From contig CAIRCM010000008.1 in NCBI GenBank assembly GCA_903877125.1, positions 1 to 64,000 of the forward strand: DNA of 64,000 bases, written 5' to 3'. A program made the position numbers and the translations under genes. This stretch comes from an uncultured Acetobacteraceae bacterium (lineage in GTDB: Bacteria; Pseudomonadota; Alphaproteobacteria; Acetobacterales; Acetobacteraceae). This document shows positions 51,244 to 62,051 of the stretch, one piece after another. The notes beneath the pieces are model-generated. The model was given only the letters and a program-made list of their open reading frames with translations. It made no database searches and had not been told where the DNA came from. Position 1 is the first letter of the stretch. Each line of letters opens with the position of its first letter.

Positions 51244-52331
51244 CCGCACCGCTGCTGGAGGTCCAGGGACTCACGCGTCATTTCGCGGTCAAGCGGGGCC
51301 TGGTTTTCAGCCGCGATGCCGGGGTGGTCCGCGCGGTCGATGGGGTGTCGTTCCGGCTGGACCGGGGGGAGACCTTGGCGCTGGTCGGTGAATCCGGCTG
51401 CGGCAAGTCCACCACCGCGCGGCTCGTCTTGCGGCTGATCGAACCGACCGCGGGTACGGTCTGGTTCGAGGGGCAGGACGTCACCGCCATGACCGGGGAG
51501 CCGCTCAGGTCACTGCGCAAGCGGCTGCAGATTGTTTTCCAGGACCCCTTCGCGTCCCTCAATCCCAGGATGACGGTGGGCGAGATTCTGGAAGAACCGC
51601 TGATCGTGCATGGCATCGGCGACGCCCGTTCCCGGGCGGACCGGGTGGCGGCGCTGCTGGGACAGGTCGGACTCGCAGCGTATCACGCACAGCGCTATCC
51701 GCACGAATTTTCCGGTGGCCAGCGCCAGCGTATCGGCATCGCTCGGGCCTTGGCCGTCGAGCCGTCGTTGATCGTGTGCGATGAGCCGGTGTCGGCGCTG
51801 GATGTGTCTGTCCAGGCGCAGGTCATCAACCTGCTCAAGGATCTGCAACGCGCGCTCGGTCTGTCCTATCTGTTCATTGCCCATGATTTGGCAGTGGTGA
51901 AGCACATGGCCGACCGCGTGGCGGTCATGTACCTCGGTCAAATCGTGGAAATCGGCCCAGCGGCTGCGTTGTTCGCGAACCCGCGCCATCCCTACACCCG
52001 CACGTTGCTGGCCGCGATTCCGCGTCCCGATCCGCACCGGACCCACGTCCAGGCGGTCGCGACTGGGGATGTGCCGAGCCCGATGAATCCGCCGGCGGGG
52101 TGTCGGTTCCATACCCGCTGCCCCCTGGCGGTCGATCGCTGCCGGACGGAAATGCCGGTGCTCGGCGCTGTCGGCGATGGCCATTCGGCCGCCTGCCACC
52201 GGTCCGCGGAATTGCCGCCGTTGGATGCGGAGACGGCCGCCGCATCCGCCCCGGCCGCCGCACGGCGCTTGGCGCTCTACGCGGCGCGCCGTGCGGAGGC
52301 TTTGGCGACGACCGTCAGCGCGACATCGTAA
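51240..52331 (+). CDS. Peptide-type ABC transporter ATPase, OppF-like
   Basis: A 363-residue partner ATPase. Walker [18 protein letters not shown]-loop [17 protein letters not shown], signature [16 protein letters not shown] and Walker [11 protein letters not shown] are present, followed by an oligo_HPY segment with [19 protein letters not shown]. Alanine-rich C-terminal tail. Its last 17 bases overlap the convergent monooxygenase gene. Confidence 0.92.
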
Positions 52332-53955
52332 ACCCTTCGTATCCGTTCGCCGCCACCGCGTCGCAGCGCTTCTTGTAGCCGGCAAAACCGCCGACATAGG
52401 GCATGAACACGCGCGGTTTGCCGGGGATATTCGCGCCGACATACCAGGAGTTGGCCAGCGGATACAGCGTGCTGTCCGCCACATCGTTGACGTGCTGCAC
52501 CCAGTCCCGTTCCGCGTCCGGCGTCGGTTCGATCCGGGTCATGCCGCGTTCGCGCATGGTGCCGAGGCAGTCGGCGATCCAGTCCATGTGTTGCTCGATC
52601 GCGACAATCATCTGGGTCTTGACGGATGGGCTGCCGGGACCGGTAATCGTGAACATGTTGGGAAAGCCCGCGACCATCAAGCCGAGGTAGGTCGTCGGCC
52701 CGCCCTCCCATTTCTCGGCCAAGGTCGGTCCGTTGCCAACGCGGATGTCGATTTCCTTCAGCGCGCCGGTCATCGCATCGAAACCTGTGGCGAACACGAT
52801 GGCATCGAATTCATATGCCTGTTCGGTGGTGCGCAGGCCGGTTTCCGTGAGTTCCACGATCGGGTTGGCGCGGGCGTTGACCAGCGTGACGTTATCGCGG
52901 TTGTACGTTTCGTAATAGTTGGTATCCAGGCACAGGCGTTTGGTTCCGATCGGATGATCCTTCGGCGCCAGCAGTTCGGCGGTAACCGGATCCTTGACGA
53001 TGCCGCGAATCTTGTTGCGAACAAATTCCGAAGCGGTGTCGTTGGATTCCTTGTTCACCAGGATATCGGTGTAGGAATACAGGAAGCTGATGCTGCCGCC
53101 CTCGGCCCATTTGGCCTCGTACTGCGCCTCGCGTTCCTCGGGGGTCACCTCCAACGCGGATTTCGTGGGGGGCGGGAAGCCGGCGATGCCGAATGGGGTC
53201 TCATAGGCCGCTGCGCGGCGGTCGGGATATTCCGATTTGTGGCGGGCCTCGATTGTCGGGTCCATCGGGGCGTTGCGCGCGGGCAGGCTGAAATTCGCGG
53301 TGCGCTGGAAAACGTGCAAATGTTTCGCTTGGCGGGCGATGATCGGTATCGACTGCACCCCGGACGACCCGGTCCCTACGATGCCCACGCGCAGGCCGGT
53401 GAAATCCACGCCCTCATGCGGCCACAGCCCGGTGTGGTACCATTTGCCCTTGAACCGCTCGATACCTTTGAAATCGGGGACGCGCGGCGTGGATAGATTG
53501 CCCGTCGCCATGATGCAGAACGGCGCGGTGACGACGTCGCCCTTGTCGGTTCGCACGGTCCAGATGTTGCGGCCCTGATCGAACGAAGCCTCGGTCACTC
53601 GGGTGTTGAGCTGCACGTCTTTGCGGAGATCGAAACGATCTGCGACGTGGTTGATGTATTGCAGGATTTCCGACTGGTTGCCGTAACGCTCCGGCCAGTG
53701 CCATTCCTGTTGCAGGTCATTGTCGAACGAATAGGAGTATTCCAGGCTTTCCACATCGCAGCGGGCGCCGGGATAACGGTTCCAGAACCAGGTCCCGCCG
53801 ACACCGCTGCCGGCTTCGAACGCTTTAGCCTTCAGGCCGAGCCGGCGGAGACGGTGCAGCGCGTAAAGCCCACCCAAGCCACCGCCGACGACGATGGCAT
53901 CGAAGTCCGCCGCGCGCGATGGGACGGAGGCGCTGCGTTCCATGGTTTCCGACAT
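52315..53955 (-). CDS. Flavin monooxygenase, Baeyer-Villiger type
   Basis: A 546-residue FAD enzyme. [15 protein letters not shown] binds [19 protein letters not shown] binds NADPH, and between them [12 protein letters not shown] matches the Baeyer-Villiger fingerprint FxGxxxHxxxWP. It would convert a ketone to an ester or lactone; the substrate is unknown. A 20-bp TetR-like operator lies 21 bases upstream of the start codon, indicating induction by substrate. Confidence 0.9.
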
Positions 53956-54029: not shown

Positions 54030-54785
54030 CTAAAACCGCACGACCTGCTCCACCGCGACCGACCGGCAGTCCATCTCGTATTCCAGCCCGACGACCGGCG
54101 GGCGGGCATAATGCCAGCTCAGCCCGTGTTCGGCGGCGCCGCGGCGGACGATCTCATCGGCCAGAAAAGGGTGAAGGTCGTGCACGGTATAGACCTGCAC
54201 GGCGGTCGTATCCGCCCACGCGGCGCCGATCGCGGCCAGACGTTCCTCCATCCGGCCGAGCACGTAGATGCCCTTCTCCCGCATCGCACCGGCGCTGGTC
54301 TCCCCGAACCGGACGGTGCGCTCGCGGTACGACGCGTGACCATCCTCGGCCTCACCGCTGCCCGAGATCGCGAACGAACCGGACGCCCCGGGGGCCGGCC
54401 GAGCAAAGCAGAACGCGTGAAAGCTGGGTTCGAGCGGCTTGTGTTGCTCCGGGCAGACGTTGCTGCGGGCGACCGGGTTACGGTCGTCGCGCATCACCCC
54501 CCAACGCTCCAAAGTCTCGCAGTAAAGCCTGTTGAAGGCGATGAAGCCCGCATCGGTGAACGGCGCGGGGGAGCGTAGTTCGCACGCGCAGAACGCCGTC
54601 AGCGGGATGTCCTCCGCCCCCAGAAAGCGCTCGATGAACGCAAATCCCTCGGCCAGCGGGACCGTGCGGTGGAACGACACACGCTCGATCCGAAATCCGT
54701 CCAGGGCCTGCACACCGGCGGAGTATTGAAACACGCCGGGGATGTAGCGGTAGCCGGCGTGCGGCAGGTCGATCGTCGCGCCCAT
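54030..54785 (-). CDS. CnbZ-like/Rid-type deaminase family protein
   Basis: A 251-residue protein resembling the 2-amino-5-chloromuconate deaminase (CnbZ) group of the YjgF/Rid superfamily: GYRYIPGVFQYSAGVQAL, FCACELRSPAPFTDAGFIAF and VQVYTVHDLHPFLADEI. The Rid fold removes ammonia from reactive enamines. The exact substrate is inferred from distant similarity only. AGGAG stands before the ATG. It follows hldE by 13 bases on the same strand and is separated by a 74-base gap from the monooxygenase, with which it could share catabolic function. Confidence 0.65.
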   Translation of the reverse strand: MGATIDLPHAGYRYIPGVFQYSAGVQALDGFRIERVSFHRTVPLAEGFAFIERFLGAEDIPLTAFCACELRSPAPFTDAGFIAFNRLYCETLERWGVMRDDRNPVARSNVCPEQHKPLEPSFHAFCFARPAPGASGSFAISGSGEAEDGHASYRERTVRFGETSAGAMREKGIYVLGRMEERLAAIGAAWADTTAVQVYTVHDLHPFLADEIVRRGAAEHGLSWHYARPPVVGLEYEMDCRSVAVEQVVRF

Positions 54786-54798
54786 TGGGTTTCTCCTG

Positions 54799-56289
54799 TT
54801 ATGTTTCCGGCAACGCCATGCGCCGGATGGTGCCCGTCGTGCTGTGGCCTTCTTCCAGCGTGACCAGCAGCACCTCGCCGCCCCAACCCATGACCTCCCG
54901 GGCGCCGACGACCTGATCCACGGTGTAATCCGATCCTTTGACCAATACATCGGGCTTCAGCGCCTGGATCATCTCCAACGGGGTGTCCTCGTCGAACAGC
55001 GTCACCAGATCCACCGGCGCCATCGATGCCATAACGATGGCTCGGGCGGTCTCGCTTTGCAGCGGGCGGTTCGGCCCTTTCAGCCGCTTGACCGAAGCAT
55101 CGGTGTTCAACGCCACGATCAGCCGGTCGCAGGCGGCGCGCGCCTCCGACAGCAGGCGAACATGGCCCGGATGGATCAGATCGAAGCAGCCATTCGCGAA
55201 ACCGACGCGCAGCCCCATTTCGTGCCAGGTTTCGACCTGCGCCATGGCTTCGCCAAGCGTCGCGACCTTACGGTCGGTCACCGCCAGGTCGCGCCGGTGC
55301 AGCGCGCCCAGCAGTTCCTGGCGGGTGACCGTCGCGGTGCCCTGTTTGCCAACCGAGATGCCGGCGGTGACGTTCGCAAGCCGAGCGGCGTCGGGCAGCG
55401 AGGCGCCGGCCCCCAGCGCGACGGCAAGCGCGGCCACCAGCGTATCCCCCGCGCCCGACACGTCCGCGACCTCCCGGGCTCGGGTGGGCAGATGCATGGC
55501 ATCGCGGTCGCGCCGGACGAGGGTCAGTCCCTTGGCCGAACGGGTGACCAGCACGGCCTCGCCCTGCGTGGCGGCAAGGGCGGCGCGTCCGGCGGCATCG
55601 GCCTCGGCGTCGTGTTCTGCCCCGATCCGGGTGGCGGCGCGGACTTCGTGCTCATTCGGGGTCAGGATCGTGGCGCCGCGATAGGCGCTGAAATCGGCGC
55701 GTTTGGGGTCGGCGATGACGATGCGCCCCGCCTGGGCGGCCAAAGCGAGCGTTGCCGTCAGCACCCGGTCGCATAATACCCCTTTGGCGTAGTCCGACAG
55801 GACAACGATGTCGGTACGCCCAAGCGCAGCTTCGACCCGGGCGATGACGGCGGTGGCGGTCTCGGCGTCCAGCGGTGCGACAACTTCTTCGTCGAGGCGC
55901 AGCAACTGGTGCGAGCCGGCCATGAACCGGGTCTTCGCGGTGGTGGGGCGGTCGGACGCGATCGTCAGGCTGGACACGATATTGGGGGTGTCGGTCAGCA
56001 ATGCCCCGATCTCCGCCCCGGCGACATCGGCGCCCACGACCCCGATCAGTTCGGCGTGTCCCCCCAGCGTCGCCACGTTCAGCGCTACGTTGGCCGACCC
56101 ACCCAACGTCGAGCGACGTTCGTCGGGCCGCAGAACGGGGATCGGCGCTTCGGGGGACAGGCGCGACACGGCCCCCGTGACGTAGCGATCCAGGATGACG
56201 TCGCCCACGACCAGCACCCGCGCGCGCGGGAAATGCCGCACGATGTCCGCGAGGCCGGTGTCGCCTTGAGGATGGTCACTGTCCGCCAT
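54799..56289 (-). CDS. hldE: Bifunctional heptose-7-phosphate kinase/heptose-1-phosphate adenylyltransferase
   Basis: HldE makes ADP-D-glycero-beta-D-manno-heptose for the lipopolysaccharide core. The 496-residue protein has an N-terminal PfkB-type kinase (VLVVGDVILDRYVTG, GGSANVALNVATLGG, DVSGAGDTLVAALAVALG) and a C-terminal nucleotidyltransferase with FANGCFDLIHPGHVRLL carrying the HxGH motif. I chose the ATG at 56289. It lies opposite the repeat protein and giant glycosyltransferase gene, whose GT9 domain would use heptose. Confidence 0.95.
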   Translation of the reverse strand: MADSDHPQGDTGLADIVRHFPRARVLVVGDVILDRYVTGAVSRLSPEAPIPVLRPDERRSTLGGSANVALNVATLGGHAELIGVVGADVAGAEIGALLTDTPNIVSSLTIASDRPTTAKTRFMAGSHQLLRLDEEVVAPLDAETATAVIARVEAALGRTDIVVLSDYAKGVLCDRVLTATLALAAQAGRIVIADPKRADFSAYRGATILTPNEHEVRAATRIGAEHDAEADAAGRAALAATQGEAVLVTRSAKGLTLVRRDRDAMHLPTRAREVADVSGAGDTLVAALAVALGAGASLPDAARLANVTAGISVGKQGTATVTRQELLGALHRRDLAVTDRKVATLGEAMAQVETWHEMGLRVGFANGCFDLIHPGHVRLLSEARAACDRLIVALNTDASVKRLKGPNRPLQSETARAIVMASMAPVDLVTLFDEDTPLEMIQALKPDVLVKGSDYTVDQVVGAREVMGWGGEVLLVTLEEGHSTTGTIRRMALPET

Positions 56290-56450
56290 AAGGCCCGTCT
56301 TCCTGTTGTCGTGCCTGCCCGATAGCACCCCCAACCGGAGCCCGCACCGGTAAAAAATGCGGTCGAGGCGGTTCCCATCGGTCGCCGCCGCTTGTATTCA
56401 TTCCCGGTGTTTTCGTCTTTGGGGCCAGTGCCCATCAGCCCGGAGCAGTC

Positions 56451-56846
56451 GTGAAATACATTCCTCCCTTCGATCTCATCCGGCGTTCGGTGGAGATATC
56501 CACCATACGCGGCGAATTGCGGGTCAATGTCTCCTACGACGATTTTCTCCGTTTGTTGAAAAAGATGATCGTGGGGATCGACGTCGATGAGGAATGGTAC
56601 CTGCGCACCTATGAGGACATAGCCGAAGCCGTCCGGTCGGGGGCGATCAGCTCCGCGCGGCACCATTTCGTGGAGGATGGTTACTTCGAAGGCCGGCTGC
56701 CCTTCCCGATCGGGGTCGATGAGCAGTGGTATATGAGCCAGTACCCCGATGTCGGCGACAGCGTGCGGCGCGGGCTTTTGCCATCGGCCCAGACCCACTT
56801 TGACGAGGACGGGTACCGCGAGGGGCGCCTGCCCTTTGGAATGTAG
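56451..56846 (+). CDS. Small protein with two tandem glycan-locus repeats
   Basis: A 131-residue protein with no signal peptide. Two repeats with a period of 44 residues (about 45-85 and 89-129) share VDExWYxxxYxDxxxxVRxG, SAxxHFxxDGYxEGRLPF. Similar repeats are found in glycosyltransferases and surface-glycan proteins, where they are thought to mediate interactions. The N-terminal 40 residues are unrelated. It precedes the large glycosyltransferase by about 100 bases. Function unknown. Confidence 0.75.
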   Translation: MKYIPPFDLIRRSVEISTIRGELRVNVSYDDFLRLLKKMIVGIDVDEEWYLRTYEDIAEAVRSGAISSARHHFVEDGYFEGRLPFPIGVDEQWYMSQYPDVGDSVRRGLLPSAQTHFDEDGYREGRLPFGM

Positions 56847-56949
56847 CCGTCCGTGCTACAAGCCCGACCGAACAGACGATATCCGAAGGTAGGTCGTGCA
56901 TGAAGGCGTTTGTCGGGCAAGGCGCGAACGGATCGGCGCGAGGTTGCCC

Positions 56950-59900
56950 ATGACCCGCAACCCCCGCACCTTGCCTGCCGGAACGACTGCGCGAGGCCAC
57001 CGGCGCAGGCCGATCAGGATCGAGGTTGATCCGGCTGTGTCCGGCGGATTTTTGCTGGGCCGGTTCGATGTGTTGATCCGGGGAGCGGTTGTCTCCGCTT
57101 CGGCCGTCGAGGAAATCGATCTGCTGATGGGCGGTGCGCCAGTCAGCACAGCGCGTTACGGCGATCCAGACCGGCGGGCGGGGAAATACGGCTTCCATTT
57201 CAACCTGCCGCGTTTGCGGGCGATGGCCGGCGGCTACTACAACCTGAGTATTCGCGCACGCACGGTCGATGGCGACGTGCACGAGGAAGCCTATGAACTG
57301 GCAGTCGCGCCGGACGATCCGGCCCCGGTGAGCCTGCTGTCCGGGGCCGTGCGAAGGCCGAAGGCGGGGCCGGGGCCGATGCCGCCGGTCATCGTCTACG
57401 TCGAACAAGCCGACATCGATGCTGACGGAACCGTTGTGGTGAAGGGCTGGGCGGTCTCGACGGCGGCGCCGGCTACGGTTCAGGTATATGTCGGCGACAG
57501 CCAGATTGCCGCCGCCGCGCCGGGGGAGGAACGCGATGATGTCGCGAAGGCCTATCCGGACTACCCGAATGCCGCCCTGGCGGGATTTAGCCTCTCGGTG
57601 CGCGTCGATGATCCGCAACGCCAGGCGCGCGCGGTGCGGGTCGAAACCCTTGGCCCCCGCGGCATCGCCCATGCGGTCGCGGTGCCGCTGGAGCGCCTGT
57701 CCAGCCGCGGGCCCGCGCCCGCGGCGGCTGCACCGGGGCCAGTCATCCCCACGGCGGAACCCGTCGCGCGGCATCCGATCCACATGTTCTGCGACAGCGT
57801 GACCTTGGCGGAGGACGGCTTTCTCACGCTGTCCGGATGGGCGACATGTGCCGACGATATTTCCACGGTGCTGATTTATCTGGACGGTATTTTGGTTGGT
57901 GAAGCGGAGCGTGGCCGCGAACGTCCCGATGTCGCGAGGCATTACGGAGCCATTCCGTCTTCGGCCCGTGCCGGATTCGAATTTCGTCGGCGCATGGCCG
58001 ACACGGTGGGAACCGAACATACGGTGCGCCTGCTGGTGCGCAGCGGCGCGGGGGAGGAACGGGAGGAAACCCTCGCCATCTCGTCGATTACGCCGGTGGC
58101 GACTGTCGCCCCATCCGGCCCGGCGTTCGATTCGACCGAACCCGAGGAGTTTCGGTTTCAGCTCGATTCGCCACGGGTCGTGGACGGCGCCGCCGTCGCG
58201 ATCGTCACCCGGCGCTTGACCGTCGAAGGGTGGGTGTTGGCGCGATCCGGCGTCGCTGGGGTCGACGTCGTCCTGAACGGCCAGCGTCTGGGGGAGGTTC
58301 ATTACGGCCTCGTCAGGCAGGATGTCGGAATGGCGTTTCCCGACTGGAACAATGCCAACCGCGGGGGATTCGTCTTCCATTGTCCCCCGCGCAGCTTGCG
58401 CAATGGAGTGCACGACCTGCGCATGGAAGTACGCGCCAAAAACGGCAACGTTCTTACCCAGTCGTTCAGGATCGAGGTGCAAAAAGCCGAGGATGAGGAC
58501 AATATCGCCCTCATCCGGCGCCGGGTGTCGCGGGTGGAAAGCGATATGCTCGATGCCATACTGGCCGATCTGACGGGCACCGGCATGCCGTTGCGGTTCG
58601 CGCTGTTTCTGCGCCAGTCCGGCGCGGTCGATCCCGACGCGCTTTCAGCCACGCTGAATGCGCTGCGGCTGCAATGTTTCCGCGATTGGCGACTCACGAT
58701 CCTCGCGGACGACCCGGCGAACCGGGCCCCGGTCGCCGCCGTCCTGGACACCTTTGGCGAAGCGTTCGCGGCGATGGCGACCATCGTCGCACCGGACGAC
58801 GAGGCATGGCGGGAACCGCTGGGGCCCGACGGCGGGCTGGTCGGTTTCCTCTGTCCCGGCGACGAACTGGGGGCCGACGCCCTGATCGAATTTGCGCTGG
58901 CTCGGAGATTGCGGCCGGCTGCCGACTTCCTTTATGCCGATGAGACGAGACTGAGTGTTGTCACTCAGGAACGGGAGCCGTTCTTCAAACCGGACTTCTC
59001 CCCCGACCTGTTGTTGTCCACCAACTATATTGGGCGGCCATGGGTGGCTGACGCCTCCGTGATCAATCGGCTTCTGGTCGCGCCAGCCGATCTGGCCAGC
59101 ACCGGCGAATACGATCTGGTGCTGCGCGCGACCGAAGCGGCCGGAAACGTCCATCATATCCCTAAAATTTTGTGCGCGCGTGGCCCGGCGGCGCTCGACA
59201 GCGATGAAACAGGCATGGAAGCCCTGACAAGGGCGGTCAAACGCCGGGGCATAGTCGCTGATGTGCTGCCGACACCGGTCGCGGGCACTTGGCGCGTCAG
59301 GCGGGCGTTGACCTCGACGCCCAAGGTTTCCATCGTCATCCCGACCTGCGCCGCGCACGGGTATATCGAGACCTGTATCGAAACCCTGCGGGCGACGACC
59401 CGCTATCCGAATTTCGAAATCATCGTCATCGACAATATTCCGGTCAGCCAGATGGCATGGAAGATCTGGTTGCGGAAGCATGCCGACAAGATCGTCGACA
59501 TGCCGCTGGCGTTCAACTGGTCGCGCTTCAACAACACCGCGGTCGACGCCGCCGATGGCGAATTCGTGCTGTTCCTCAACGACGATACCGAATTCGATCA
59601 GCCGGATTGGCTGGACGCGCTCATGGAGCATGCGCAGCGCGCCGCGGTTGGGGTCGTCGGCGCAAGACTGCTCTACCCCGACCGCAGGGTGCAGCATGCG
59701 GGTATGTTCTTGGCACGCAATGGCATTGGTCGCCACGCATTCCGTTTCGAAAAAGAACACGACCCCGGGTATTTCGGATTATCGCTGACCCAGCGCAACA
59801 CGATCGCCGTCACCGGCGCTTGCATGCTGGTCCGGCGGTCGGTGTTCGACGCCCTGGGGCGCTTCGATGAAGCGCATGAAATCGTCAACAATGACCTCGA

Positions 59901-61290
59901 TTTTTGTCTGCGGGCGCACCAGGCGGGGCTGCTGACCGTCTACACACCCTACGCGACGGTCATTCATCACGAACTCGCCAGCCGGGAGGGGTTGGAGGAC
60001 GTCTACGACCTGGGCCATTTCAACAGCCAATGGCGGACCAGATTCGCGGCGGGGGATCCGTATTTCAACCCGAATTTATCGCGTAATGCCGATGATTACC
60101 GATTGGACGACGAGCCGGTGGAAGTGGTGCACCCCGGCTATCCGCTGTTTCGTACGGACGATATCCAACGCATACTGGTCGTGAAACTCGATCATATCGG
60201 GGATTTCGTCACCGCATTGCCTGCGATCCGATATTTGCGGCGTATTTTTCCCCACGCGGAAATCAGTGTTCTCGCGGGGCCGGCATCGCACGCCTTCGCC
60301 AGTATGGAACCGGCGATCGACGAATTCATTGAATTCTCTTTCTTCCACAGCCGTTCGCAATTGGGGGAACGAGGCCTAACGCCTGACGATTTTGCCGGAC
60401 TCGCTGAGCGATTGAAACCGCGACGTTTCGATCTTGCCGTCGATTTGCGAAAGCACACATCGACCCGCGATGTCCTTCGCTACACCGGTGCCCGGTTTCT
60501 CGCGGGTTTCAACTACCTCGGCCAATATCCGTTTCTGGATATTTCGTTGGAGTGGGACGGCGACCGGGGATTGCAGCGCAAGCATGTGCATGTCATCGAC
60601 GATCTGATGATTCTGGCCACGGCGATCGGCCGAGCGACGGGGGCCGGCCGGGCGCCGATTCAGGGCAATTTCGAACCATTGCCGGTGGATGAATTTCCGG
60701 AACAGATACAAAAAATATTCGATAAACCGGTCGTCGCGGTGCATCCCGGCGCCGGCAACATCACCAAGCAGTGGCCGGTCGAGCATTTCTCCGCTCTGAT
60801 CGATCTGTTGATTGAACGGAACGGTGTCAATGTGTTGCTGATCGGCGGTCCGGATGAGGTCGGGATCGCTGATACGCTTCGAGAAAGCGTGCTTCACAAG
60901 GGGGCCGTTGCCTCCATGGCCGGGCAGACTTCGCTGGTCATGCTGCCGCGCGTCCTCGCTGCCTGCGTGCTGTATATCGGTAACGACAGCGGCCCCAAAC
61001 ACATCGCGGCCGCCATGGGCATGCCGACGATCGGAATTCACTCCGGGGTGGTCGACGCCGCGGAATGGGGCCCGGTGGGCCCGCGCGCGGTGGCGGTGCG
61101 GCGAAATATGACCTGTAGCCCATGCTATCTCGCGGACGCCGCCGACTGCCCGCGCGCTCTCGCCTGCCTGCGCGGCCTCGACGCCACCCACGTCCACAAC
61201 TTGGCCGAAGTCCTGCTCGGTCGCACAACCGCCCGATCCCGACCGCTTGGGCGCCCCGACGCCGGGCAACAGGCCCAGGAGGCACCGTGA
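56950..61290 (+). CDS. Giant glycosyltransferase fusion: four beta-sandwich modules, two GT2 domains, GT9
   Basis: A 1446-residue protein. Residues about 22-120, 148-248, 276-378 and 401-515 are four similar beta-rich modules sharing a GW...vylDG...vG...R.DV...aGF pattern. Residues about 540-760 are a degenerate GT2 (FFKPDFSPDLLLSTNYIG). Residues about 790-1040 are a full GT2 with VSIVIPTCAAHGYIETCIET and NDDTEFD (Asp878-879), and residues about 1072-1430 a GT9 heptosyltransferase-type domain with ILVVKLDHIGDFVTALPAI, HPGAGNITKQWP (His1265) and GNDSGPKHIAAA. An upstream GTG at 56896 is possible. No signal peptide or membrane segment. It likely builds a heptose-containing surface glycan. Confidence 0.9.
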   Translation: MTRNPRTLPAGTTARGHRRRPIRIEVDPAVSGGFLLGRFDVLIRGAVVSASAVEEIDLLMGGAPVSTARYGDPDRRAGKYGFHFNLPRLRAMAGGYYNLSIRARTVDGDVHEEAYELAVAPDDPAPVSLLSGAVRRPKAGPGPMPPVIVYVEQADIDADGTVVVKGWAVSTAAPATVQVYVGDSQIAAAAPGEERDDVAKAYPDYPNAALAGFSLSVRVDDPQRQARAVRVETLGPRGIAHAVAVPLERLSSRGPAPAAAAPGPVIPTAEPVARHPIHMFCDSVTLAEDGFLTLSGWATCADDISTVLIYLDGILVGEAERGRERPDVARHYGAIPSSARAGFEFRRRMADTVGTEHTVRLLVRSGAGEEREETLAISSITPVATVAPSGPAFDSTEPEEFRFQLDSPRVVDGAAVAIVTRRLTVEGWVLARSGVAGVDVVLNGQRLGEVHYGLVRQDVGMAFPDWNNANRGGFVFHCPPRSLRNGVHDLRMEVRAKNGNVLTQSFRIEVQKAEDEDNIALIRRRVSRVESDMLDAILADLTGTGMPLRFALFLRQSGAVDPDALSATLNALRLQCFRDWRLTILADDPANRAPVAAVLDTFGEAFAAMATIVAPDDEAWREPLGPDGGLVGFLCPGDELGADALIEFALARRLRPAADFLYADETRLSVVTQEREPFFKPDFSPDLLLSTNYIGRPWVADASVINRLLVAPADLASTGEYDLVLRATEAAGNVHHIPKILCARGPAALDSDETGMEALTRAVKRRGIVADVLPTPVAGTWRVRRALTSTPKVSIVIPTCAAHGYIETCIETLRATTRYPNFEIIVIDNIPVSQMAWKIWLRKHADKIVDMPLAFNWSRFNNTAVDAADGEFVLFLNDDTEFDQPDWLDALMEHAQRAAVGVVGARLLYPDRRVQHAGMFLARNGIGRHAFRFEKEHDPGYFGLSLTQRNTIAVTGACMLVRRSVFDALGRFDEAHEIVNNDLDFCLRAHQAGLLTVYTPYATVIHHELASREGLEDVYDLGHFNSQWRTRFAAGDPYFNPNLSRNADDYRLDDEPVEVVHPGYPLFRTDDIQRILVVKLDHIGDFVTALPAIRYLRRIFPHAEISVLAGPASHAFASMEPAIDEFIEFSFFHSRSQLGERGLTPDDFAGLAERLKPRRFDLAVDLRKHTSTRDVLRYTGARFLAGFNYLGQYPFLDISLEWDGDRGLQRKHVHVIDDLMILATAIGRATGAGRAPIQGNFEPLPVDEFPEQIQKIFDKPVVAVHPGAGNITKQWPVEHFSALIDLLIERNGVNVLLIGGPDEVGIADTLRESVLHKGAVASMAGQTSLVMLPRVLAACVLYIGNDSGPKHIAAAMGMPTIGIHSGVVDAAEWGPVGPRAVAVRRNMTCSPCYLADAADCPRALACLRGLDATHVHNLAEVLLGRTTARSRPLGRPDAGQQAQEAP

Positions 61291-62051
61291 TGCAAGATAC
61301 CGAACTGCTGGAACTCGCGGCCGGCCTCGCCTTGCGCGCGGCAGCCGTCATCCTCGAAATCCGCGCACGCGGGTTCGCGGTCGAGCGCAAGGAAGACCGC
61401 TCGGTCGTCACCGAGGCCGATCGTGCCGCCGAGGAACTCATCGTCGCCGGACTGCGTGACGCCTGCCCGGATATTCCCGTGATCGCCGAGGAAGAGGTTG
61501 CCGGCGGTCGGATCACCGCGGCGGCTCATCGGTTCTGGCTGGTCGATCCGCTGGATGGGACGCGGGAGTTCACCTCCGGCAGCGATGATTTCGCGGTCAA
61601 CATCGGTCTGGTGCGGGATGGGCGTGTCGCATTGGGCGTCGTCGGCGTGCCCGCGACCGGCGAACTGTTCGGCGGCATCGTGGGCCACGGCGCCTGGAAG
61701 CGTGTGGGCGGCCAACAAATCGCGATCCGCACCCGCGCGGTGCCGCCCGAAGGCGTGACCGTCGTCGCCAGCCGCCACCATGGTGCCGGTCCCGAACTCG
61801 ATGCGTTCCTGGCGGGACGCAGCGTCGCCGCGATCCGCAACTATGGCTCCAGCCTGAAGTTCTGCCGATTGGCCGAAGGGATCGCCGATCTTTATCCGCG
61901 CTTCGGGCGGACGATGGAATGGGACACCGGGGCGCCGCAGGCGGTGCTGGAAGCGGCGGGAGGATCGGTGCGCACCGTCGGCGGAAGCCCGCTTCTGTAC
62001 GGCAAGCCCGGCCGGGAAAACCCGCATTTCATCTGCTCGGGTGCCGGTTGA
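61290..62051 (+). CDS. cysQ: 3'(2'),5'-bisphosphate nucleotidase/inositol monophosphatase family
   Basis: A 253-residue lithium-sensitive phosphatase. EEE-type metal ligands (IAEEEVAGG) and the family signature WLVDPLDGTREF are visible, followed by the C-terminal EWDTGAPQAVLEAAGG. CysQ recycles PAP formed in sulfate assimilation; inositol or histidinol phosphatase activity is an alternative. AGGAGG at 61277-61282 favours this ATG over the GTG 3 bases earlier. It overlaps the glycosyltransferase stop by one base. Confidence 0.88.
   Translation: MQDTELLELAAGLALRAAAVILEIRARGFAVERKEDRSVVTEADRAAEELIVAGLRDACPDIPVIAEEEVAGGRITAAAHRFWLVDPLDGTREFTSGSDDFAVNIGLVRDGRVALGVVGVPATGELFGGIVGHGAWKRVGGQQIAIRTRAVPPEGVTVVASRHHGAGPELDAFLAGRSVAAIRNYGSSLKFCRLAEGIADLYPRFGRTMEWDTGAPQAVLEAAGGSVRTVGGSPLLYGKPGRENPHFICSGAG

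Follow-up and report, generated by a model that had tools for sequence, protein, structure and literature searches.

A probable heptose-glycan enzyme of Acetobacteraceae joining Ig-like modules, two GT2 domains and a GT9 domain in one chain

We analysed a 64,000-nucleotide stretch of DNA from an uncultured Acetobacteraceae bacterium (contig CAIRCM010000008.1, positions 1 to 64,000; hereafter the window). One of its open reading frames encodes a 1446-residue fusion protein composed of four related immunoglobulin-like (Ig-like) modules, a degenerate GT2 domain (GTa), a complete GT2 domain (GTb) and a GT9 domain of the heptosyltransferase type. A 131-residue tandem-repeat protein, here called rep, is encoded just before it and hldE lies opposite, a layout given in a preliminary description and borne out by Pfam searches and profile comparison. 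The locus probably encodes a real, so far undescribed machine that builds a heptose-containing surface sugar. We lean towards reading the fusion as a cytosolic bifunctional transferase that places a GT2 sugar and a GT9 heptose onto a surface glycan; the probably inactive GT2 domain, the modules and rep would serve for docking. The domain types are all known; what is new to us is their combination, its spread over many Acetobacteraceae genera and the rep partner. Like the preliminary description, we found no system with this layout, and no such fusion appeared in the titles and abstract beginnings of the open-licence PMC literature among the matches listed.

Architecture and spread of the fusion

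The domain order, the conservation of motifs, the recurrence of the fusion across genera and the linkage to hldE, hldD and rep were all established by computation. Every one of the 33 genomes of the same genus strongly matches at least part of the fusion, and in 30 of them the glycosyltransferase (GT) part forms a single frame of at least 1361 residues (contig ends truncate two of these 30, G016 and G019). In the remaining three, G012, G013 and G020, at least one piece stops at a contig end. The long single frame in 30 of 33 genomes leads us to reject split genes or an assembly artefact, which the preliminary description had named as a way in which it could be wrong.

Beyond the genus, the GTa-GTb-GT9 fusion is present in 26 of 150 Acetobacteraceae genomes, representing 21 of 102 genera; G203 holds a probable 27th copy that is cut at a contig end, and the copy in G132 carries an in-frame TGA. 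A threshold of E 1e-80 is passed by 79 of the 150 genomes, 53 of which (including G203) show GTa-GTb only. The order modules-GTa-GTb-GT9 holds in all 26 loci where modules and GT9 are both readable, three further loci being cut before the modules. Readable fusions contain two to five detected modules, and these counts are minima because a divergent first module may drop below the threshold. In a class-wide survey of 385 genomes at E <= 1e-130, the fusion was found in the source genome only, among the 21 genome rows listed, five of them from Acetobacteraceae. Two occurrences lie outside the family: a Methylobacteriaceae metagenome-assembled genome (locus L092) encodes a fusion that is 39% identical and has three modules, and plasmid p5 of Gemmobacter fulvus carries a copy missing its 5' part at an IS6 element. 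The most divergent fusions, L192 and L193, share a cluster with a gene judged by eye to be sulfotransferase-like, and the L193 cluster also encodes a large protein, one stretch of which is module-like.

The features of the locus are as follows (coordinates in the window, then strand).
54799-56334, minus: hldE, bifunctional heptose-7-phosphate kinase / heptose-1-phosphate adenylyltransferase, divergent from rep, the fusion gene and cysQ
56451-56846, plus: rep, 131 residues, two repeat units, GTG start, no Pfam hit
56580-56708, plus: rep unit 1 (residues 44-86), from hhalign against unit 2
56712-56840, plus: rep unit 2 (residues 88-130), from hhalign against unit 1
56950-61290, plus: fusion glycosyltransferase, 1446 residues from ATG; alternative GTG start at 56896
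57007-57333, plus: Ig-like module M1 (residues 20-128), the most divergent; this and M2-M4 from profile comparison and AlphaFold2
57382-57705, plus: Ig-like module M2 (145-252)
57763-58095, plus: Ig-like module M3 (272-382)
58141-58491, plus: Ig-like module M4 (398-514), the best conserved
58582-59304, plus: GTa, degenerate GT2 (about 545-785), probably non-catalytic, from alignment with the intact first GT2 of L172
59320-60099, plus: GTb, complete GT2 (about 791-1050), NDD motif at 877-879
60151-61239, plus: GT9 heptosyltransferase-type domain (1068-1430), from Pfam, NCBIfam and PDB sequence search
61114-61167, plus: four-cysteine cluster C-x2-C-x7-C-x5-C in GT9 (1389-1406), invariant in 12 of 12 aligned sequences
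61290-62051, plus: cysQ, 3'(2'),5'-bisphosphate nucleotidase (TIGR01331)

The GTb region matches PF00535 at residues 794-969 with 58.6 bits (cut-off 23.3), and its NDD and other conserved motifs are invariant in all 13 sequences aligned. For GTa, Pfam reports no glycosyltransferase domain, and the GTa profile slice does not match that of GTb (hhalign 0.5%). GTa does align with the first GT2 domain of the tandem paralogue L172, where PF00535 is intact at L172 residues 119-279. The DHDD motif of L172 reads PGDE in the window GTa, and DHDD is absent from GTa in nine of nine fusions aligned. This degeneracy is not special to the fusion, because the first GT2 domains of the tandem-only paralogues L170 and L171 lack the motif too. 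Judged by its alignment, GTa is probably non-catalytic.

The GT9 domain scores 108.6 bits against PF01075 (cut-off 22), and a PDB sequence search with its profile finds WaaF (1psw, E 6.3e-18, aligned over positions 7-296 of the 359 in the profile) and WaaC (2h1f, E 2.7e-10, positions 7-313). The equivalents of WaaC Asp13 and His266, which we take to be catalytic, are D1085 and H1351 and are invariant in 12 of 12 sequences. The position of WaaC Lys192 is Lys in ten and Arg in two of the 12. The active-site patterns of GT9 are intact in the window protein, as first described, with two of 12 relatives differing at two donor-site positions.

Heptose genes beside the fusion

Both domains of the window hldE product score above their NCBIfam cut-offs (TIGR02198, 352.9 versus 345; TIGR02199, 188.5 versus 181.5), and the full-length model PRK11316 is narrowly missed (482.9 versus 521). 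All 19 same-genus loci fetched, chosen from the 33 genomes for their long contigs, have hldE, rep and cysQ around the fusion gene in one and the same order. cysQ lies downstream in each of them, and in the window its start shares one base with the stop codon of the fusion gene (TGATG, 61288-61292), an overlap that the preliminary description does not mention; its product exceeds the TIGR01331 cut-off (243.1 versus 228.8 bits). Among 24 fusion loci from other Acetobacteraceae genera, hldE was seen in ten, hldD in two, stand-alone rep in 13 and cysQ in five. The heptose link of the preliminary description is upheld.

Gene order around the fusion varies, with at least four arrangements that include hldE among the other genera. 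Seven of the ten such loci share the divergent hldE of the window; in L182 the order is hldE, fusion, hldD and rep, all on one strand, in L180 it is fusion, rep, hldE and hldD, and in L156 hldE and the fusion gene are convergent. In the independent lineage of the Methylobacteriaceae locus L092, the fusion is followed by HldD (370.9 bits, cut-off 274.6). The truncated Gemmobacter copy has as neighbours an AGE epimerase, a GmhB-like phosphatase that scores below its cut-offs, HldE, rep and rfbABCD. It is this linkage to hldE or hldD, extending to the Methylobacteriaceae genome and the Gemmobacter plasmid, that probably ties the GT9 domain to ADP-heptose.

A tree of HldE contained 24 fusion-linked sequences (23 from Acetobacteraceae and that of Gemmobacter; L073, L074, L078, L084, L156 and L176 were omitted). 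The 23 Acetobacteraceae sequences form one clade (support 0.997), outside which the Gemmobacter HldE falls, and 11 second genomic copies form a separate clade (support 1.0). Such a second hldE is present in the source genome (G000:C200:18911-20335, 48% identical to the fusion-linked gene), an assembly of 5.15 Mb that is 97.9% complete, and 19 of the 22 same-genus genomes searched carry a gene of its type, which is broken in one or two of them. In all five loci compared, the second hldE adjoins a gene that looks phosphoesterase-like by eye. The source genome also has hldD on another contig, GmhA-like and GmhB-like genes below strict cut-offs, and 12 GT9 matches. We therefore rejected hldE as an exclusive partner of the fusion, and the term compact locus, used at first, proved too narrow.

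The same data bear on the foremost rival, in which the fusion is a housekeeping heptosyltransferase of the lipopolysaccharide (LPS) core, with the core heptose added by GT9 and the sugar after it by GTb. The presence of at least part of the fusion in all 33 same-genus genomes, and of hldE beside it in the loci fetched, would fit such a role, as would the NCBIfam scores of the window GT9, which lies closest to the models for heptosyltransferase II (88.9, cut-off 134.6) and III (85.3, cut-off 170.2), followed by I (71.3, cut-off 185.3). Three stand-alone GT9 proteins of the source genome were tested, out of its 12 matches, and none reaches a heptosyltransferase cut-off. A core enzyme would nevertheless be expected in most genomes of the family rather than in 26 of 150, and the plasmid copy flanked by an insertion sequence is accompanied by dTDP-rhamnose genes. 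We regard a core function as possible but unlikely.

On its other side, hldE of the window adjoins a gene for CnbZ (2-amino-5-chloromuconate deaminase; 54030-54950, minus strand; NF049982, 375.1 bits, cut-off 220). A flavin monooxygenase gene lies at 52315-53955 on the minus strand; its top NCBIfam model is of the Baeyer-Villiger type, at 266 far below the cut-off of 1100.

Ig-like modules and the repeat protein

Profile-profile comparison with hhalign shows that M2, M3 and M4 are mutually homologous (99.6-99.8%) and that M1 matches the other modules at 87-96.5%, against a maximum of 1.4% in 36 comparisons with column-shuffled controls. The possibility that the modules are noise, also raised in the preliminary description, is thereby rejected. 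AlphaFold2 predicts four beta-sandwiches (predicted local distance difference test score, pLDDT, 86.3) but no fixed mutual arrangement (predicted template modelling score, pTM, 0.50). A fold search listed mostly generic Ig-like domains. The top three matches (Z 9.9, root-mean-square deviation 2.0-3.5 over 86-101 residues) all fall on the last module and are a sulfite dehydrogenase, a sulfite oxidase and an S-layer protein; the shared Ig-like fold names no function. Pfam recognises Big_7 (26.7 bits, cut-off 24.1) and a weak Big_13 in the modules and nothing else, and the module profile, run against PDB sequences, found no match below E 0.7. No further modules were found in the source genome at E 0.001, nor in a plasmid search with M3-M4 as the query. 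A possible carbohydrate-binding role of the modules finds no support in the Pfam or fold searches.

A simple hydropathy scan of the fusion revealed no signal or clear membrane segment, the 19-residue mean peaking at 1.60, in GTa, and at 1.37 within the first 60 residues. For this reason the modules are probably cytosolic, and the same result, together with the cytosolic location of nucleotide sugars, leads us to take the whole fusion as probably cytosolic.

It had been proposed that the fusion could polymerise a glycan while its modules keep hold of the chain being built. The pair of GT2-type domains and the repeated modules within one polypeptide do recall a processive polymerase. Two-domain GT2 polymerases of the chondroitin or hyaluronan synthase type, however, need two catalytically intact GT2 domains, and GTa is degenerate in every fusion aligned; the modules have a generic Ig-like fold and are probably cytosolic, and no test here showed processivity. 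With motifs retained in just one of the two GT2 domains, polymerisation is not supported, and neither is a chain-holding role of the modules. We consider a processive polymerase very unlikely.

The rep protein proved, as described, to be a tandem repeat, its two units matching each other at 99.9% (hhalign). An alignment of 40 sequences has invariant W49, Y50, H72, F73, G77, E80, R82 and P84, among others, and AlphaFold2 predicts a beta hairpin and a helix followed by two three-helix units (pLDDT 95.5). rep has no Pfam or PHROGs hit and no NCBIfam match above cut-off. Its predicted fold has no PDB match at E <= 0.001, the best VIA Z being 2.2 among 162 chains aligned, although a missing PDB match does not prove the fold new.

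Stand-alone rep lies beside or near the fusion in all 19 same-genus loci (with the match in pieces in L076, L080 and L086). A rep match at E <= 1e-20 is found in 21 of 26 fusion genomes versus 33 of 124 others (Fisher p 3.7e-7), a comparison in which the genomes are not mutually independent, the rep profile A3 includes proteins from fusion loci and so favours fusion genomes, and both surveys are assumed to have drawn the same 150 genomes, as the genome labels suggest. Among the loci picked, rep units are also embedded in ten larger frames. Of the seven that were scanned, six contain glycan-enzyme domains known to Pfam (GT2, GT4, pyruvyltransferase, WbsX) and carry the rep units in their N-terminal part: L223 861-4007, L224 1139-4660, L227 4044-7676, L228 98-1483, L179 4470-7508 and L196 3995-7954. 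The seventh, on Gemmobacter fulvus p5 (L195 19498-20964), has no Pfam hit and appears sulfotransferase-like by eye; we note that this rep fusion fits with the cysQ gene that follows the GT2-GT9 fusion gene in the genus of the window. A plasmid of Bradyrhizobium ottawaense encodes a stand-alone rep between a WbsX/GT protein and a pyruvyltransferase. By its sequence context, the rep unit appears to be a module of glycan enzymes for which Pfam has no model.

Proposed function and comparison with known systems

Based on the above data, we infer a model that covers the location, the donor, the acceptor, the two transfers and the roles of the modules and rep. In this model, GTb and GT9 would act on one and the same carrier-bound surface glycan, GTb adding one sugar and GT9 a heptose taken from ADP-heptose. 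The heptose donor would be made by the linked HldE together with HldD encoded elsewhere in the source genome. GTa and the string of Ig-like modules would have a structural or docking role, and rep would be a docking adaptor, its unit being elsewhere fused directly to other glycan enzymes. The surface-glycan setting of the preliminary description is kept on these inferential grounds. The dTDP-rhamnose genes of Gemmobacter and the sulfotransferase-like neighbour, taken with cysQ, might point to rhamnose and sulfate as constituents of the glycan. A bolder version, which we think rather doubtful, has a dedicated heptose-glycan line in which two to five cytosolic Ig-like modules form a spacer or ruler and rep, a new fold, is a general docking adaptor that, fused or in trans, would gather many different glycan enzymes at a single carrier-bound glycan.

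Several observations weigh against the bifunctional-transferase reading. The cytosolic location is a prediction from a simple hydropathy scan. A rep paralogue of the source genome (G000:C176:4726-5112, L198) is not near glycan genes and lies beside genes that look by eye like an enoyl-CoA hydratase and an acyl-CoA ligase. In 14 of the 24 other-genus loci no hldE is present in the stretch fetched, and nine have none of hldE, hldD or stand-alone rep, several of the contigs being short; one of the nine, L179, has rep units embedded in a neighbouring glycosyltransferase. The 23-leaf HldE clade may simply be the HldE of Acetobacteraceae, given that the tree held fusion-linked sequences and second copies. 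The GT9 domain scores below the cut-offs of LPS heptosyltransferases I, II and III, so that ADP-heptose as its donor is not established by profile. Lastly, in L018 (1495-2571) and L035 (4615-5691), the two deviating sequences of the 12, and in Gemmobacter (L195 12099-14540), the donor-site change from Lys to Arg is paired with Asp to Asn in NDSGPKH; these paired changes may mark a different donor or changed activity, and donor use may vary for this reason. The GT9 scores, the paired substitutions and the loci without hldE would all be in keeping with a donor other than ADP-heptose and an incidental hldE link. hldE or hldD nevertheless accompanies the fusion in three settings, in which the HldE lineage differs or HldD is the partner, and we judge another donor improbable.

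A further alternative is heptosylation of proteins, as performed by the autotransporter heptosyltransferases TibC and AAH. These resemble the fusion GT9 in heptose transfer, which for GT9 is presumed, and in a four-cysteine cluster of the C-lobe, and the invariant cysteines of GT9 recall the iron finger of TibC (cysteines 339, 342, 358 and 370). TibC has an N-terminal beta-barrel and forms a dodecamer, its cysteines are spaced differently from the C-x2-C-x7-C-x5-C of GT9, and neither TibC nor AAH is known to carry a fused GT2. TibC chains were not among the PDB sequence-search matches of GT9 up to E 1, and no autotransporter was recognised among the neighbours named, no search having been aimed at one. 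With GT2 fused to GT9 and the spacing unlike that of TibC, protein heptosylation is highly improbable.

Returning to the bifunctional glycan transferase, its parts can be compared with known enzymes. WaaF and WaaC, of the GT9 family, have the sequence family, the catalytic Asp and most donor-site motifs in common with the fusion; they are stand-alone proteins, whereas the window GT9 follows Ig-like modules and two GT2 domains in a single chain and falls below the equivalog cut-offs. The GTa-GTb tandem is shared with tandem GT2-GT2 proteins of what we take to be the Myxococcus RfbC type. Those of L170-L172 lack GT9, and their first GT2 domain is intact in L172 and degenerate in L170 and L171. 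The HldE/HldD pathway to ADP-heptose is represented by the linked hldE here and by hldD in other lineages, with the second hldE also present in the source genome. The gene for the heptokinase WcbL belongs to a capsule cluster. Such clusters with their own heptose genes likewise place heptose genes beside glycan assembly genes. We know of no fused GT2-GT9 enzyme or rep in them.

If the proposed function is correct, a single enzyme carrying two transfer sites would make an undescribed heptose-containing glycan that is patchily distributed in Acetobacteraceae. The proposal would also provide a functional hypothesis for an uncharacterised repeat that recurs in the N-terminal part of glycan enzymes of several kinds.

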